Under the pieces are notes generated by a model, which did no database searches, had not been told where the DNA came from, and saw only the letters and a program-made list of their open reading frames with translations. A stretch of 37,291 bases of DNA from a virus. Made by a program: the position numbers and the translations under genes. The DNA is taken from IMG/VR virus record IMGVR_UViG_3300010396_000074, positions 1-37,291 of that record, one strand, 5' to 3'. Shown here one piece after another: positions 24,931-34,993 of this stretch. Position 1 is the first letter of the stretch; every line of letters begins with the position of its first letter.

Positions 24931-27282
24931 CTACCGTGCGCCACCGGCTGCGGCGAAGTCCGCAGGCACGAGCGCAGGGGAAGTCATGGCGCGGGGCGTG
25001 CTACCGCCGGGCGCCGGAGGTGAGGCTGCGGCCGGACCAGCGCCGCCAGGGACGAGCGAAAGGTTCGGAGGGCCACCACCGGGCGCGCCAAGCGGCGATG
25101 GCTGGCCGGGCGGTTGCGCTTCGCCGGGGCCAGCGGCCGCGTTCGCCGCCTGCTCCGCGATTTCGTCCACGGCCTGCATCGTCTGCTTCATGTGCTCGAG
25201 GAAGGCGTTCTGCGCGAACGGCGTCCACCGATCGAACCGGGCGCGCTCCCGCTTCATGAACCGGAAATGCTCCTCGAGGTGCTTCGGCTGCGACTGCCAG
25301 AAGCCGAGTTGCGGGATCTGCACCTCGCCCTTCGCCGGATCGAGCACCTCGAACATGGCGTGCTCCATCTGCACTTCGACCAGATCCTCATCTTCGTCCG
25401 TCTCGAAGCCAGCGAGGCCGGTCGATCCGGTGTCGAGGAAGTGCGAGAACTTCTCATGGTCGACCGTGCCGTCCGGCTTCTGCACGAGGCCGGGGAACTT
25501 GCCGAGCACGTCGAGTTTCGTGTCCCACTGCGCCGACTTCGACCACGGGAACGAGGAGCCGACCTGCACGCGAACCGTGAGCCCGTCGACCAGCTTCGCG
25601 CGGTCAAAGGACCGGACTTCCCACTTCCCGCGCTCACCGCGAATCTGGATCTTCCGCTCTTCGCGGTAGTGCGAGCGCGCCAGAATAAGACAGCGGTTGC
25701 CGATCTCCTCGAGCGCGTCTTCCCACGCTTCGAGATCCGGCCCCATGACCGAGTCCGTCACTTCCTGCATCACGAGGAAGGCGCGCCCGGCCGAGACGCC
25801 TTCTGGCTTCTTGCCGAGCTCGACCTCCGACAGCGACATCACGAGCCGGACTTTGTCCATGATGACGTTGCGTTCGTTGTAGACTTCCGAAGGCAACGCC
25901 AGCAGCGTCGCCTGAATCGGCGGCTTCCCGAGCGCATAGCCCTTGGACGGCAGCACCTGCGCGGGGTCGGACGTGATGGTGAGCCCTTTGTCTTCAGGGT
26001 GCACGGTCCATTTCCCACCCATCGCCATCGTGACTTCGTGCTCCAGAATCTTCCCGTCGAGCGAGTTGTACGCTTCGTTGAGGGGAACGACCTGCGGGAG
26101 CGCGCCCATCGCCTGCGGCTGGCCGGGAATCGGGGTCGAAAGGATCGGCACCAGCGGCGGCCAGAACCCGTTCGGCAACGGCGCTTCGCCGTCCGGGTAG
26201 TCTTTGTCGTCCGCTGGCGGCCAGACCTTCTTCATCCCGATCGTGATCCAGTGCCGACCGTTCGGGAACTCTTCCGGATTCTCGCGCGAATAGAACTCGA
26301 TCACAAGCACGCGGTCGCCGAGTGCGGTGTCCTGCGAGGAACCGATCTGCGAGCCGAGCAACCCTTGATTGGTCAGCCAGCCGGGACCGGCCGCCGCCGA
26401 ACTCAGCAGGTCGTCGTACATCTGTCGGTCGCCGGAATCTGAACCGGATGGCGACAGGTCCGTCTCTTTCAGCTTGAAATGGCGCAGCGCCTTCTGCTTC
26501 GGCCAGAGCGTCGCGACGTACATCTCGTAGGCGTCGTCCTCGTCTTCTGCTTCCGGGTTGTAGCGGACGCAGAGCGGATCGACAAAGTCGAGCGCGATCT
26601 CGCCCTGTGGCACGAGCGCGGGGTTCGCGTCGTAGTTGATCTCGCCGTCCTCGCCAACGATCGGCTCGCCCTGGTCGTCCAGCGGGACGGGCACGTCGAT
26701 CGTCTCGCCAGCGGCCGCCATCTCAGCATCGGGATGCGGGATCTCGCGCAGTTCGGTCAGCGGGATCATTTCGCCCGCTTCGGGATCGAAGTGCACCCGC
26801 GCGTAGACTTGGCCGGTGCACAAGAACCACCCGATGCCGCGGCGGATTTTCTTCTGGAACTTGAGCTTTCGCCAGAGATAGTCGAGCAGCGAACCGGCGA
26901 GCTGCGAGGCTTCGCGCGCGTCCGAGTCGCCGGACGGCGGCACGACTTCGAGCGCTGGCTTCTGCTTTGAAAGCTTGTTCGCCAGCGTCCGGTAGACCGC
27001 GTAGACGATGTTCGTGACCGGCTGCTGGCGCCACGGTGGGACGGAGGTGTCGGTCGTGAACTGCCGTGACCCGGACATCCACTTCAGCCACTGCCGGCCG
27101 AGCAGAAACAGGATCGTCTTGACCCACGTCTGATAGAACCCGACGTAGTGGTCCGACTGTACGGTGTACCGCGCAAACGGATACTGGCCCTTCTTGTCGT
27201 CGTCGGCGTCGATCGGGGGCGGGTCCCCATACGCCATGTTGAGGATTTCGGCGCCGAGGTCCGTCTTCGCGTTCGTACTCAC
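24931..27282 (-). CDS. Portal protein, P22-type (783 aa)
   Basis: The GTG start overlaps the stop of the 62-residue gene as GTGA. The N-terminal third is typical of large podovirus portals: KTILFLLGRQWLKWMSGSRQ near 55, NIVYAVYRTLANKLSKQKPA near 90, then GDSDAREASQLAGSLLDYLW, and RRGIGWFLCTGQVYARVHFD near 147. A long middle region (wing and stem) follows, and a C-terminal Pro/Gly-rich tail that may form the barrel or be disordered. It forms the 12-fold DNA entry ring at one capsid vertex, and binds terminase and adaptor. Confidence 0.88.
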   Translation of the reverse strand: MSTNAKTDLGAEILNMAYGDPPPIDADDDKKGQYPFARYTVQSDHYVGFYQTWVKTILFLLGRQWLKWMSGSRQFTTDTSVPPWRQQPVTNIVYAVYRTLANKLSKQKPALEVVPPSGDSDAREASQLAGSLLDYLWRKLKFQKKIRRGIGWFLCTGQVYARVHFDPEAGEMIPLTELREIPHPDAEMAAAGETIDVPVPLDDQGEPIVGEDGEINYDANPALVPQGEIALDFVDPLCVRYNPEAEDEDDAYEMYVATLWPKQKALRHFKLKETDLSPSGSDSGDRQMYDDLLSSAAAGPGWLTNQGLLGSQIGSSQDTALGDRVLVIEFYSRENPEEFPNGRHWITIGMKKVWPPADDKDYPDGEAPLPNGFWPPLVPILSTPIPGQPQAMGALPQVVPLNEAYNSLDGKILEHEVTMAMGGKWTVHPEDKGLTITSDPAQVLPSKGYALGKPPIQATLLALPSEVYNERNVIMDKVRLVMSLSEVELGKKPEGVSAGRAFLVMQEVTDSVMGPDLEAWEDALEEIGNRCLILARSHYREERKIQIRGERGKWEVRSFDRAKLVDGLTVRVQVGSSFPWSKSAQWDTKLDVLGKFPGLVQKPDGTVDHEKFSHFLDTGSTGLAGFETDEDEDLVEVQMEHAMFEVLDPAKGEVQIPQLGFWQSQPKHLEEHFRFMKRERARFDRWTPFAQNAFLEHMKQTMQAVDEIAEQAANAAAGPGEAQPPGQPSPLGAPGGGPPNLSLVPGGAGPAAASPPAPGGSTPRAMTSPALVPADFAAAGGAR

Positions 27283-27467: not shown

Positions 27468-27471
27468 AAAG

Positions 27472-27545
27472 TGGCGGGAGTCGGATTTGAACCGACGACC
27501 TCGCGGTTATGAGCCGCGCGCGCTGCCGGACTGCGCCATCCCGCT
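27472..27545 (-). tRNA. tRNA with CAT anticodon (Met-type)
   Basis: A full cloverleaf can be drawn over 74 bases: acceptor AGCGGGA with TCCCGC; D stem GCGC/GCGC with GG in the loop; anticodon stem CGCGG/CCGCG with loop CTCATAA; T arm GTCGG-TTCAAAT-CCGAC. Positions 1 and 72 are A and C, an unpaired end as in initiator tRNAs, but the three G-C pairs typical of initiator anticodon stems are not all present (C29:G41). CCA is not encoded in full. It may be elongator or initiator Met, or tRNA-Ile2 if its C34 is modified to lysidine. Confidence 0.88.
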
Positions 27546-28583: not shown

Positions 28584-28876
28584 GATGCACACTCATTCGG
28601 GCAGGTGAGCTCCATCGCTTTCCCGCAGCCGCAGCGCAACGGTTCGAGCATTCGCGTCTCGCCACACCCATCGCCGTGCGTCGGCCGCGACCCGCGACGG
28701 CGAGGCGCTGGCGTTGCGACCTTTCGGCCATCCTTCTGCGCGGCGCGCACCGCAGCTAGTCGCTCAAGTGTGCAGGTTCCTTCCAAGCAATAAATCTGCC
28801 GCGGCCCGACCGGCGCGAAACTCCGACCGCACTCCGCGCGCGCGCATACCCTCGGCTTGTACGCTTTCACGCTCAT
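28580..28876 (-). CDS. Cys-rich zinc-finger-like protein (98 aa)
   Basis: The ATG overlaps the upstream stop as ATGA. Cysteines fall in two clusters: N-terminal CARAECGRSFAP with YCLEGTC (residues 11-36), and C-terminal LRCGCGKAMELTCPNEC (residues about 80-96). This suggests two small metal-binding knuckles joined by a basic linker (PAPRRRGSRP). It probably binds zinc and nucleic acid or protein. No family match recalled. Confidence 0.6.
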   Translation of the reverse strand: MSVKAYKPRVCARAECGRSFAPVGPRQIYCLEGTCTLERLAAVRAAQKDGRKVATPAPRRRGSRPTHGDGCGETRMLEPLRCGCGKAMELTCPNECAS

Positions 28877-29553: not shown

Positions 29554-29761
29554 TCTGAACCTCCCGCTTGGCGCGATCCGCCGCCACGCAGGCGGCCGCA
29601 AACTCCCGCGCCGTCAGCACGACGGAGAGCCCATTCCCACCACGAAGGGCAAGCGCGCGCTCGTATATCTGACTGTCAGTTGCGTCCGCTGTAAGCGGCT
29701 CGTGGGGGTGATAATCACCGGGCAACCGCCCTACGGGGACAGCATCGTCGTCCCGTGGCAT
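29546..29761 (-). CDS. Small hypothetical protein (71 aa)
   Basis: The ATG overlaps the preceding stop as TAATG. It has a proline-rich start (MPRDDDAVPVGRLPGDYHPH) and a helical end (LTAREFAAACVAADRAKREV). No motif recognised. Its coupling to the zinc-knuckle gene and to the 226-residue gene supports expression. Confidence 0.55.
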   Translation of the reverse strand: MPRDDDAVPVGRLPGDYHPHEPLTADATDSQIYERALALRGGNGLSVVLTAREFAAACVAADRAKREVQND

Positions 29762-30012
29762 TAATCCTCCCTGCCGCGCGAATCGTCGCGCATCTTGTCG
29801 ACGTACTTCGCGTCCGCTTCTGACACGGACGGCATCGGCGCAAGGTCGCTCTTGTCCAGCGCCGGCAACGTCAGGTGACAGTCACAGGTGTAGTGGCACT
29901 TCGGCGCGAGAGCCGGCAAGCTCACGAGTCCCTGCGCTTCTCGCTCATCCTCCACATACGAGAAGATGGGAGCGCCACACCTTGGACAATTCCCAGCAAA
30001 CTGATACGTCAT
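29761..30012 (-). CDS. Zinc-knuckle protein with CPRCGAP start (83 aa)
   Basis: The ATG has GGAGGAG upstream, a strong ribosome binding site. Near the N-terminus AGNCPRCGAPIFSYVE is the first half of a zinc site; HYTCDCH at about 40-46 can supply the remaining ligands. The rest is acidic and probably flexible (DKSDLAPMPSVSEADAKYVD). This resembles short zinc ribbons in phage Com-like regulators but is not a clear match. The gene just upstream encodes a peptide that repeats this N-terminus. Confidence 0.65.
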   Translation of the reverse strand: MTYQFAGNCPRCGAPIFSYVEDEREAQGLVSLPALAPKCHYTCDCHLTLPALDKSDLAPMPSVSEADAKYVDKMRDDSRGRED

Positions 30013-30031
30013 CTGCTCCTCCGATGTTTGG

Positions 30032-30088
30032 TCATCGCGTCGGCGCCCCGCACCGCGGGCAGTTGCCCGCCTTGGTGTACTCGGTCAC
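30032..30088 (-). CDS. 18-residue zinc-knuckle micro-gene
   Basis: The GTG overlaps the upstream stop as GTGA and is preceded by AAGGGGGA, a near-ideal ribosome binding site. The peptide MTEYTKAGNCPRCGAPTR shares AGNCPRCGAP with the start of the next gene. All ten shared codons differ between the two copies by synonymous changes only, suggesting selection for the peptide and long divergence rather than a recent DNA duplication. It may bind zinc as a dimer, or act with its neighbour. Confidence 0.6.
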   Translation of the reverse strand: MTEYTKAGNCPRCGAPTR

Positions 30089-30387
30089 TTCTTCCCCCTT
30101 GCCGCGCGCGCGCGCCCGCGGGCTATTGGCCGTTTCTTTTTCTGGAGCAATCGGATCGTCCGGCGGTACGACAGCATGACGCGCCGGTCGCGCGCCCGAT
30201 CCTTTTGCGCCTGTGCCGTCGCGGCTTCGCGGAGACGATACTCCCGGTCCCGCTGCTCGCGCAACGAGGCGTTCATGGCCTCCAGCCTTTCGCAGGCATG
30301 GGCCGCGGCACGCAACATCGCGGACGGCATCCGCGCAAACTCCGTCAAGAACGCGGTCGATGCATCTACGGTTCGTTCATCACCCAT
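30085..30387 (-). CDS. Basic helical protein behind terminase (100 aa)
   Basis: The ATG (MGDERTVDASTAFLTEFARM) lies 2 bases after the large terminase stop. The protein is a nearly continuous helix, with coiled-coil-like heptads (RAAAHACERLEAMNASLREQ; DREYRLREAATAQAQKDRAR), and ends in a strongly basic tail (KKKRPIARGRARAARGKK). The tail is likely to bind nucleic acid. It may assist packaging. Confidence 0.6.
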   Translation of the reverse strand: MGDERTVDASTAFLTEFARMPSAMLRAAAHACERLEAMNASLREQRDREYRLREAATAQAQKDRARDRRVMLSYRRTIRLLQKKKRPIARGRARAARGKK

Positions 30388-30389
30388 AC

Positions 30390-32024
30390 TCACCCCTGTC
30401 GAAGGACTGATCCGTACTTCTCTTCCACCGATTTCTGATTCACGGGTTCGTCCAACTCCCGCCAGATCTCCTGCAGCCGCGTCTTGTTCGGCGGGGCTGC
30501 GACTTCCGTTTCCACCGATCCGTACAGCGTCATGGCGAGGTACCGCGTGCCGTCCATCATGTCCGCGCCATCCGCCGAGGCGTCGTCCGGGTCGTCTTTC
30601 TGCACCTTGCCGTCTGGCATTTCCGGGTACTGCCAGTTGTTCGCTTCCCAGACCCACCGTGACCCCTCCATCGGCGCGCCGTTCGACGCGGACGACATCC
30701 CGAGCCGCCAGACCTGACCGCGGCCCATCGAGCGTCGCACGCGCAACGCGCCGCGGTTGATCATCGACTCCACGCGGGTAATGCCCTGCTTCCGGTTCTT
30801 CAGCTTCGCTTCGACTGGATAGAACCGGAACGGGGAGTCGAGGCGCTCGAACGCTTCGTTGATCGCGCGCAGTTCCTCAGGGTCCGCACACTCGCCCCAG
30901 ATTGAGATCTCCCGGACGCCGTGCCCGGTGAGCTGGTCGTGGATCTTCTTCGCACGCTGGTCCGCCGACTCGTTCTGGCTGAACACTTCGTCGACTAGCG
31001 TCAGGCCATCGTCATCGACGCCACCCCACGCGAACGCGAATCGCCATTTCCCCAAGTCGAACAGGCCGTACAGCTTCGCGCGCCGGAGGAACGACTGCAA
31101 CCGCGTGCCCTCGAGATCAACGCCGTGCTTCGAGATGTCAAACTGGTAAACCGCACCCGCCGGCTTGACGAACTTCCCGTAGAGACGGGCGGCCAGCTGC
31201 GACGGCGTGTTCGCGAACTCGGCCTCGAGCTCGTGCACGCGGGCGTCCGAAATACCGGGATTGTCGGCGACGCCGGCATGGCTGAACCAGTGCCGGTCCA
31301 GCGGAATCCGCCCGCTGTGCACCGGTTCGTAGATGCGGGAAAAGACATAGGTCGATTCCCCTTTGAGCGGCGTCATTGTCGCCATCGTCCGCCCTCGGAA
31401 CCGAGCGAGCCGCGGCTGCATCTCGTTCCACACGGCTTCCGGGTGCTCTTCGTCCAACCACACCCAATGCACACGCGCCGCCTGGTACTTCTCCGAGCCT
31501 TGTTCGGCGGCTTTGCCTGTGATGCGTGAGATCTGCCCGTTGTCGGCTTTCACGAGGATGTCGCGTTTCATCGAGGCCCGGAACGGCGCCGGTGCGTCGA
31601 CGATCCGATCCGGCGCGATCCACGTCAGCAGTTCCGGCAGCAACACGTTCTGCCACAGTTCCCACGAGAGCGCCGAGGCCCACGCCTGAATCGGCGGCAT
31701 CGCGATCACACCGGCTTGCTGCAGGGGATGGCGACCGAGGGAGAGGAGTGCCGTTGCCACGGCCCCGAGTGTGGTCTTCCCGGACTGGTTCGCCCAGAAA
31801 AGCCACGAGTGCAGGGTGTCACGCTCAAGCGCCTCGACCTGCTTGGCGTGGAGCGAGCCCGGCAGTTCGGGACCGATCTTTGATGCTTCATACAGCCAGA
31901 TGCGGCCAGTAAACGTCGGATCCAGCAACCGCTGCAACGGATCGATCGACAGCTCAGTCTGCGCGCGCCGGCGGCGCCGAAGCTCCAAGATCGCCGCCGC
32001 GCGGACCGCCGCAGGCACCGTCAC
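30390..32024 (-). CDS. terL: Terminase large subunit (544 aa)
   Basis: The start overlaps the small subunit stop by 4 bases. ATPase: Walker A ANQSGKTT at about 78-85, Walker B WVWLDEE at 187-193, coupling motif ATMTPLKG at 215-222. RNase H-like nuclease half: YGLFDLGKWRFAFAWGG with D323, then GECADPEELR with D381 as second acidic position; a later MDGTRYLAM segment may give the third. This is the DNA-packaging motor and headful or site-specific cutter. All expected motor motifs are present and the length is normal. Works with the small subunit and the portal. Confidence 0.93.
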   Translation of the reverse strand: MTVPAAVRAAAILELRRRRRAQTELSIDPLQRLLDPTFTGRIWLYEASKIGPELPGSLHAKQVEALERDTLHSWLFWANQSGKTTLGAVATALLSLGRHPLQQAGVIAMPPIQAWASALSWELWQNVLLPELLTWIAPDRIVDAPAPFRASMKRDILVKADNGQISRITGKAAEQGSEKYQAARVHWVWLDEEHPEAVWNEMQPRLARFRGRTMATMTPLKGESTYVFSRIYEPVHSGRIPLDRHWFSHAGVADNPGISDARVHELEAEFANTPSQLAARLYGKFVKPAGAVYQFDISKHGVDLEGTRLQSFLRRAKLYGLFDLGKWRFAFAWGGVDDDGLTLVDEVFSQNESADQRAKKIHDQLTGHGVREISIWGECADPEELRAINEAFERLDSPFRFYPVEAKLKNRKQGITRVESMINRGALRVRRSMGRGQVWRLGMSSASNGAPMEGSRWVWEANNWQYPEMPDGKVQKDDPDDASADGADMMDGTRYLAMTLYGSVETEVAAPPNKTRLQEIWRELDEPVNQKSVEEKYGSVLRQG

Positions 32025-34143: not shown

Positions 34144-34268
34144 GGTTCCCTCCCCTGCCGGAGAGAGTCGATCACCTTAACAACACCAGCACGACCATCA
34201 GACGCCGACACATTAAGAGGATGGTTGCGATTGTGAAGGGTGTTCGTGAAAGTGAGTACCGGCGTCAT
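34140..34268 (-). CDS. Small gene behind the methyltransferase (42 aa)
   Basis: The ATG overlaps the methyltransferase stop as ATGA, and the stop overlaps the next ATG as ATGA, as for other genes here. The peptide begins MTPVLTFTNTLHNRNHPLNV and continues with a helical end (AGVVKVIDSLRQGREP). No motif recognised. Start and stop couplings support it being a real small gene of this operon. Confidence 0.55.
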   Translation of the reverse strand: MTPVLTFTNTLHNRNHPLNVSASDGRAGVVKVIDSLRQGREP

Positions 34269-34993
34269 AAGGCCAGTACCTCCTGACTGAGACGCTCGGC
34301 GGCGATCTCGCAGTAGCGTTCCTCGATCTCAATGCCGATAGCGCGACGATGCGCGTCTTTCGCAGCGACGAGCGTTGAGCCGGAGCCCATGAAGCAGTCG
34401 AGCACGACACCGTCAAGCGGGCACGAGTATTCGATTAGCGGGCGAAGTATGCCGAGCGGTTTCTGCGTCGGGTGTTGCGCTTCGCCGTGACACGAGCGCA
34501 CCTGCAGCACCGAGCGCATGAGGCGCGGGCCGCCATCCTCGCTCTGATACGCGCCGGCTTCGATGTGGCCGGTGTGCGGCGGTCGTTGCTTGCGGCGCAG
34601 TGTGCGCTTCGTCGCGTCCGGCGTGGTCGGCGTGACGTGATAGAGGTCGTCCCACGACCCGCGATACCAGTGCACAGCGAACTCGTGCACGCGCTTGAAT
34701 CGGTCGGCGTGAAACGAGGAACCGTTGTGCTTCTCCCAGACGATCTCCTGCGCGTACTTCCCCCATGCGCTGAACTGTCCGCCGCGCTCCATCCAGAAGC
34801 GCATCGAGCCGAAGCACCAGAGTTGCGAAGCGGGGATCAGATGCACCCAACCATCCACGCACGAATCCCATTCGAGCGACGTGTCACCGTAAGGCGGATC
34901 AGCAATCACGACTGACGCCGTTAGTTCTTGCATCACCTCGCGGCAGTCTCCGTGGTAGATCGTAATCCCGCCTGATTCGTAGTACGGTTTCAT
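34265..34993 (-). CDS. DNA adenine-N6/cytosine-N4 methyltransferase (242 aa)
   Basis: The ATG overlaps the Lar-like stop as ATGA. DPPYG (residues 32-36, catalytic motif IV) comes before DCFMGSGST (199-207, the S-adenosylmethionine-binding motif I). This order is that of beta-class methyltransferases (N6_N4 type); DPPY favours adenine-N6. In between, EWDSCVDGWVHLIPASQLWC and PTQKPLGILRPLIEYS are normal for the family. Length and motifs are complete, so it is probably active, protecting phage DNA from host restriction or marking it. No partner restriction gene is seen. Confidence 0.9.
   Translation of the reverse strand: MKPYYESGGITIYHGDCREVMQELTASVVIADPPYGDTSLEWDSCVDGWVHLIPASQLWCFGSMRFWMERGGQFSAWGKYAQEIVWEKHNGSSFHADRFKRVHEFAVHWYRGSWDDLYHVTPTTPDATKRTLRRKQRPPHTGHIEAGAYQSEDGGPRLMRSVLQVRSCHGEAQHPTQKPLGILRPLIEYSCPLDGVVLDCFMGSGSTLVAAKDAHRRAIGIEIEERYCEIAAERLSQEVLAL

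Follow-up and report, generated by a model that had tools for sequence, protein, structure and literature searches.

An 18-codon open reading frame (micro-ORF) on the minus strand of an uncultured virus contig is, with a probability of roughly 0.57, the surviving start of an older zinc-ribbon family gene that was duplicated or replaced and lost its body, the copy directly downstream being the one that would now work. The window, meaning the whole stretch of DNA analysed, is an IMG/VR virus record of 37,291 bases that carries terminase, portal, and head genes. The locus lies between the gene for the large terminase subunit (terL) and the portal gene and runs from a 100-aa gene through the micro-ORF to an 83-aa gene (Table 1).

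Table 1. Positions of the micro-ORF, its neighbors, and the two genes used as queries for relatives
Feature	Positions	Strand	Remarks
Micro-ORF, 18 codons, peptide MTEYTKAGNCPRCGAPTR	30032..30088	-	GTG start, TGA stop; from sequence reading and homology; best read as what probably remains of the N-terminal end of a zinc-ribbon family gene
Zinc-ribbon-like protein, 83 aa, begins MTYQFAGNCPRCGAPIF	29761..30012	-	Carries CPRC and CDCH; a full-length member of the family
Charged 100-aa protein upstream	30085..30387	-	Stop codon TGA overlaps the micro-ORF start as GTGA; PHROG 6874 matched weakly (E=0.007)
Shine-Dalgarno-like AAGGGGG	30094..30100	-	5 nt before GTG 30088; read by eye
Shine-Dalgarno-like GGAGGAG	30016..30022	-	3 nt before ATG 30012; read by eye
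Large terminase subunit (terL)	30390..32024	-	Pfam Terminase_6N (E=5e-5); query for relatives
Portal protein	24931..27282	-	Pfam P22_portal (E=3e-7), PHROG 156; query for relatives

The frame of the micro-ORF is open over 114 codons and throughout the upstream 100-aa gene, relative to which it is shifted by -1; no ORF of at least 20 aa is listed as ending at 30032, so the earliest start it can use is GTG 30088. A reading made earlier from the sequence only had credited this start with a near-ideal ribosome binding site and GTGA coupling, and the sequence does show a good Shine-Dalgarno tract, AAGGGGG, and the overlap with the gene at 30387-30085. The micro-ORF stop is separated from the ATG of the 83-aa gene by 19 nt. 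An 8-codon frame (MTKHRRSR, 30009-30035, minus strand) spans this gap with an ATGA overlap at either end: its ATG (30035) with the micro-ORF stop, and its TGA with the start codon of the 83-aa gene. This frame may descend from the tail of the lost first copy, now out of frame (compare ...LAKHRPGER... in the related contig L002, described below), or be a product of chance.

The micro-ORF reads GTG ACC GAG TAC ACC AAG GCG GGC AAC TGC CCG CGG TGC GGG GCG CCG ACG CGA TGA, and the 83-aa gene begins, from 30012, ATG ACG TAT CAG TTT GCT GGG AAT TGT CCA AGG TGT GGC GCT CCC ... Direct reading confirmed the earlier statement that the two share AGNCPRCGAP with all ten codons different and all ten differences synonymous; a neighboring Tyr is common to both as well and is likewise encoded differently, so that 0 of 11 codons are identical. 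Across the shared 30 nt, 20 positions are identical and the longest common run is 4 nt. The further statement that the duplication is not recent also holds. When the first 18 residues of each of the 227 ORF starts in the window were compared with all three frames of the preceding 400 bases, the micro-ORF/83-aa pair scored 66 (ungapped BLOSUM62), whereas the 226 other ORF starts reached 37 at most and shuffles 43 at most (n=2000). A family profile run against the window found the micro-ORF as the sole second site (E=7e-5), and the window held no third copy of the family gene. By these scores, the two starts are homologous, and chance, which the sequence-only reading had thought a poor explanation, is excluded.

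Both the micro-ORF and the 83-aa protein match the N-terminal pattern M-x(3-7)-G-[NSA]-C-P-R-C-G-A-P, the family definition set here. The 83-aa protein also carries the second motif (C43, C45, and H46), and in a full family protein the CPRC and C-x-C(H) motifs presumably form one predicted zinc ribbon. The micro-ORF peptide ends after 18 codons and lacks the second C-x-C; it has just two cysteines, one half of a zinc-ribbon site, and so falls short of a full zinc-binding module on its own. AlphaFold modeled the 83-aa protein with low confidence (pLDDT 57), with predicted strands flanking CPRC. Neither Pfam nor PHROG gave a convincing match for the family, and a protein search of annotated phages with the 83-aa gene returned none. 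Matches of the L002 protein in phages, mostly Gordonia phages, were set aside as too weak (E about 8).

Within IMG/VR, the exact GN/GS-CPRCGAP pattern matched four contigs besides the window (L002, L065, L067, and L068), and the pattern CPRCGAP[IV][YF] added L073 and two contigs in which it fell on a knuckle inside a far longer protein. A small CPRCGAP zinc-ribbon-like family recurs in five phage-like contigs. With the two long-protein contigs excluded, its members are single copy, 56 to 90 aa long, and have the second C-x-C; the gene lies near the terminase in L065 and L067, where the terminases were identified by eye, and also in L002. The micro-ORF resembles these single-copy proteins in its start motif and in being a small ORF; it differs in that it has the first knuckle only, whereas theirs is followed by the second C-x-C, and in that it precedes a second, full copy. 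A pattern of two CPRCGA(P) motifs 38 to 68 nt apart matched the window and nothing else in IMG/VR. A near-identical pattern gave two matches in GTDB genomes, in Hymenobacter and a Chloroflexi MAG, which were discarded as single in-frame proteins with several knuckles. A literature search for the arrangement of a micro-ORF with a full gene found nothing matching.

No near-DNA match to the window was found among annotated phages, and the TerL alignment had no relative in GTDB genomes. TerL searches yielded a dozen relatives with 45 to 59% identity. The best-related contig that has the gene is L002 (IMGVR_UViG_3300044529_000032; 58% aa identity for terL and 62% for portal), in which a single 78-aa gene, MDYTHTGSCPRCGAPVYSW..., follows terL and meets the preceding gene as GTGATGG, compared with GTGACCG at the micro-ORF. 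Its product is 38% identical over 79 aa to the 83-aa protein of the window, and no micro-ORF stands ahead of it. In the sequence searched of the remaining TerL relatives, several of which are fragments, there was neither the zinc-ribbon gene nor a micro-ORF. The search for the micro-gene in related phages that had been proposed with the sequence-only reading found it absent from every relative recovered, these being at most about 59% identical in TerL and in part fragmentary. Absence from all close relatives was the outcome named with that reading as refuting it, and the result agrees with that outcome as far as relatives at this distance can show. In the relatives L007, L008, and L009, a different conserved small C-x-x-C protein (e.g., DQRRVDGHIFVGCDQCTPTTFAFGIITSRPSP) is encoded about 0.6 to 1.1 kb after terL; the window showed none in that position.

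The micro-ORF is closer to the L002 gene than to its own neighbor. Over 13 aligned residues, it shares 29 of 39 nt and 6 of 10 same-residue codons with L002, compared with 22 of 39 nt and no codon in common with the 83-aa gene. At the family start, L065 (GYTQCGNCPRCGAP) and L002 (DYTHTGSCPRCGAP) have YT; the micro-ORF retains it, while the 83-aa gene has YQ. Because of this closeness in nucleotides and codons and the YT start, the micro-ORF may be read as having begun a separate member of the family, located at the GTGA junction where such genes usually start, with the 83-aa gene as the second copy, although so few residues make this suggestive only.

The synonymous-only pattern speaks to constraint on both sequences. 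In a simulation without constraint, the ten residues were retained in 1.5% of cases at 0.2 substitutions/site and in 0.03% at 0.4, and the all-ten-synonymous outcome never occurred; constraint therefore acted during the divergence. Complete codon difference is also uncommon at full randomization, with a post hoc probability of 0.003 under phage codon usage and 0.007 under start-region usage that all ten synonymous pairs differ. Composition accounts for it in that the ten shared codons of the micro-ORF are all G/C-ending, while the 83-aa gene opens with codons richer in A/T, to a degree also met at other gene starts. Identical repeat DNA about 75 nt apart would, moreover, presumably be prone to deletion, so that surviving pairs would tend toward divergence. 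Judged by this codon pattern, both sequences were long constrained as protein, though not necessarily in the 18-codon form. Of the selection that the earlier reading saw behind the pattern, the part that stands is that amino acids were kept while codons diverged; selection on a stand-alone 18-residue peptide does not follow, because two full-length genes that diverge, with a late loss of the body of one, give an identical picture. The locus shows cleanly how even a perfect synonymous-only pattern can lead a reader astray by mimicking a selected micro-peptide.

We propose that an older family member would have stood at the family's usual place, GTGA-coupled to the gene before it, with a diverged second full-length copy, a xenolog or old paralog, directly downstream as the working gene. 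The synonymous-only differences would have arisen while both copies were full length and functional, after which the first would have lost its body, leaving 18 codons. The remnant would probably still be translated by coupling and would incidentally bring ribosomes within 19 nt of the next start. The homology, the GTGA junction, and the single full-length copy in L002 were observed, while we infer translation, the order of events, and the recency of the truncation. In favor of this history are the intact homologous copy in the window and, in one relative only (L002), a full-length gene in the corresponding position, which is single and has a GTGA junction like that of the micro-ORF. No homology is recognizable between the genes that precede the two GTGA junctions, so "corresponding position" here means the terL-portal interval and the form of the junction. 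Neutral drift could have left the motif intact, with a bound from this one sequence pair of about 0.12 substitutions/site (95%) since the end of constraint; conversely, a relict long dead would not have preserved all 11 of the tested family-consensus residues, as the micro-ORF does. Also against a relict are the 10 of 10 differing codons, which exceed expectation even at saturation (p about 0.003-0.007), the reliance of the comparisons on 13 residues, and the fact that no remains of a lost body are recognizable in the only 19 nt between the stop and the next ATG.

The sequence-only reading had instead favored a selected stand-alone peptide. On this view, its CPRC half-site would bind the full protein or a partner of that protein, complete a mixed-dimer zinc site, and so regulate or titrate it. 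The motif is wholly intact though every codon has changed, the Shine-Dalgarno tract and GTGA coupling are good, and two adjoining translated frames would produce the partners together. We nonetheless consider this unlikely: the peptide has only two cysteines, the divergence may predate the truncation and the synonymous pattern is not dated to the 18-codon state, the nearest relative with the gene is single copy, no relative found has a micro-gene, and the IMG/VR and GTDB patterns produced no second case. A functional micro-peptide or half-site partner is possible, with the intact motif as its sole support, and would, if true, rank among the smallest self-partnering zinc-motif peptides. Alternatively, ribosome transit and termination near the 83-aa start could be what matters, with the encoded residues as inherited baggage. 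Adjoining genes here usually overlap by 1 to 4 nt (e.g., at 29761, 32021-32024, and 28873-28876), the gap would be 72 nt without the micro-ORF, and the 8-codon frame links its stop to the next start; but a strong GGAGGAG site already precedes the 83-aa gene, the local RNA folds no more stably than shuffled sequence (z -0.24), and a pure coupler has no need of CPRCGAP. We consider this possibility unlikely as well. The same folding result led us to reject an RNA-structure or attenuator role. More doubtful again is that a micro-gene, coupled to the full gene, exists to make the half-ribbon, which would pair with the full protein and tune it, and that codon divergence is kept against recombinational loss of the repeat.

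Two further explanations appear very improbable. A -1 frameshift near the stop of the 100-aa gene (GCA AGG GGG AAG AAG TGA) would make the 18 codons a C-terminal extension adding a CPRC knuckle, and both the open -1 frame and the G5 run just before that stop would allow it; however, a canonical X XXY YYZ heptamer in frame is missing, and in L065 and L002 the zinc-ribbon gene has a separate start, located at the upstream stop or beyond it. The locus might also be an assembly artefact joining two phage variants, as it comes from a single metagenomic contig with no near-identical record found, yet copies this dissimilar leave an assembler nothing to join or collapse, and the flanking frames are intact.

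Gene relicts are left in phage genomes by tandem duplication or homologous gene replacement. The micro-ORF is like them as a truncated homologous fragment beside an intact copy, and unlike them in being in frame, with a good start site and a clean end after 18 codons. The regulatory role once imagined for the micro-peptide has a likeness in Sulfolobus TFS4, reported as an experimentally tested zinc-ribbon paralogue of an archaeal transcription factor turned inhibitor (PMC5715097), from which a diverged zinc-ribbon paralogue can evidently gain such a role; that case concerns complete zinc ribbons, and we claim no homology to the micro-ORF. Elsewhere on the minus strand of the window, a phage DNA methyltransferase is encoded at 34265-34993 (PHROG 67, E=2e-54, covering part of the profile only), and a tRNA-Met (CAT) gene lies at 27471-27545, just upstream of the portal gene.
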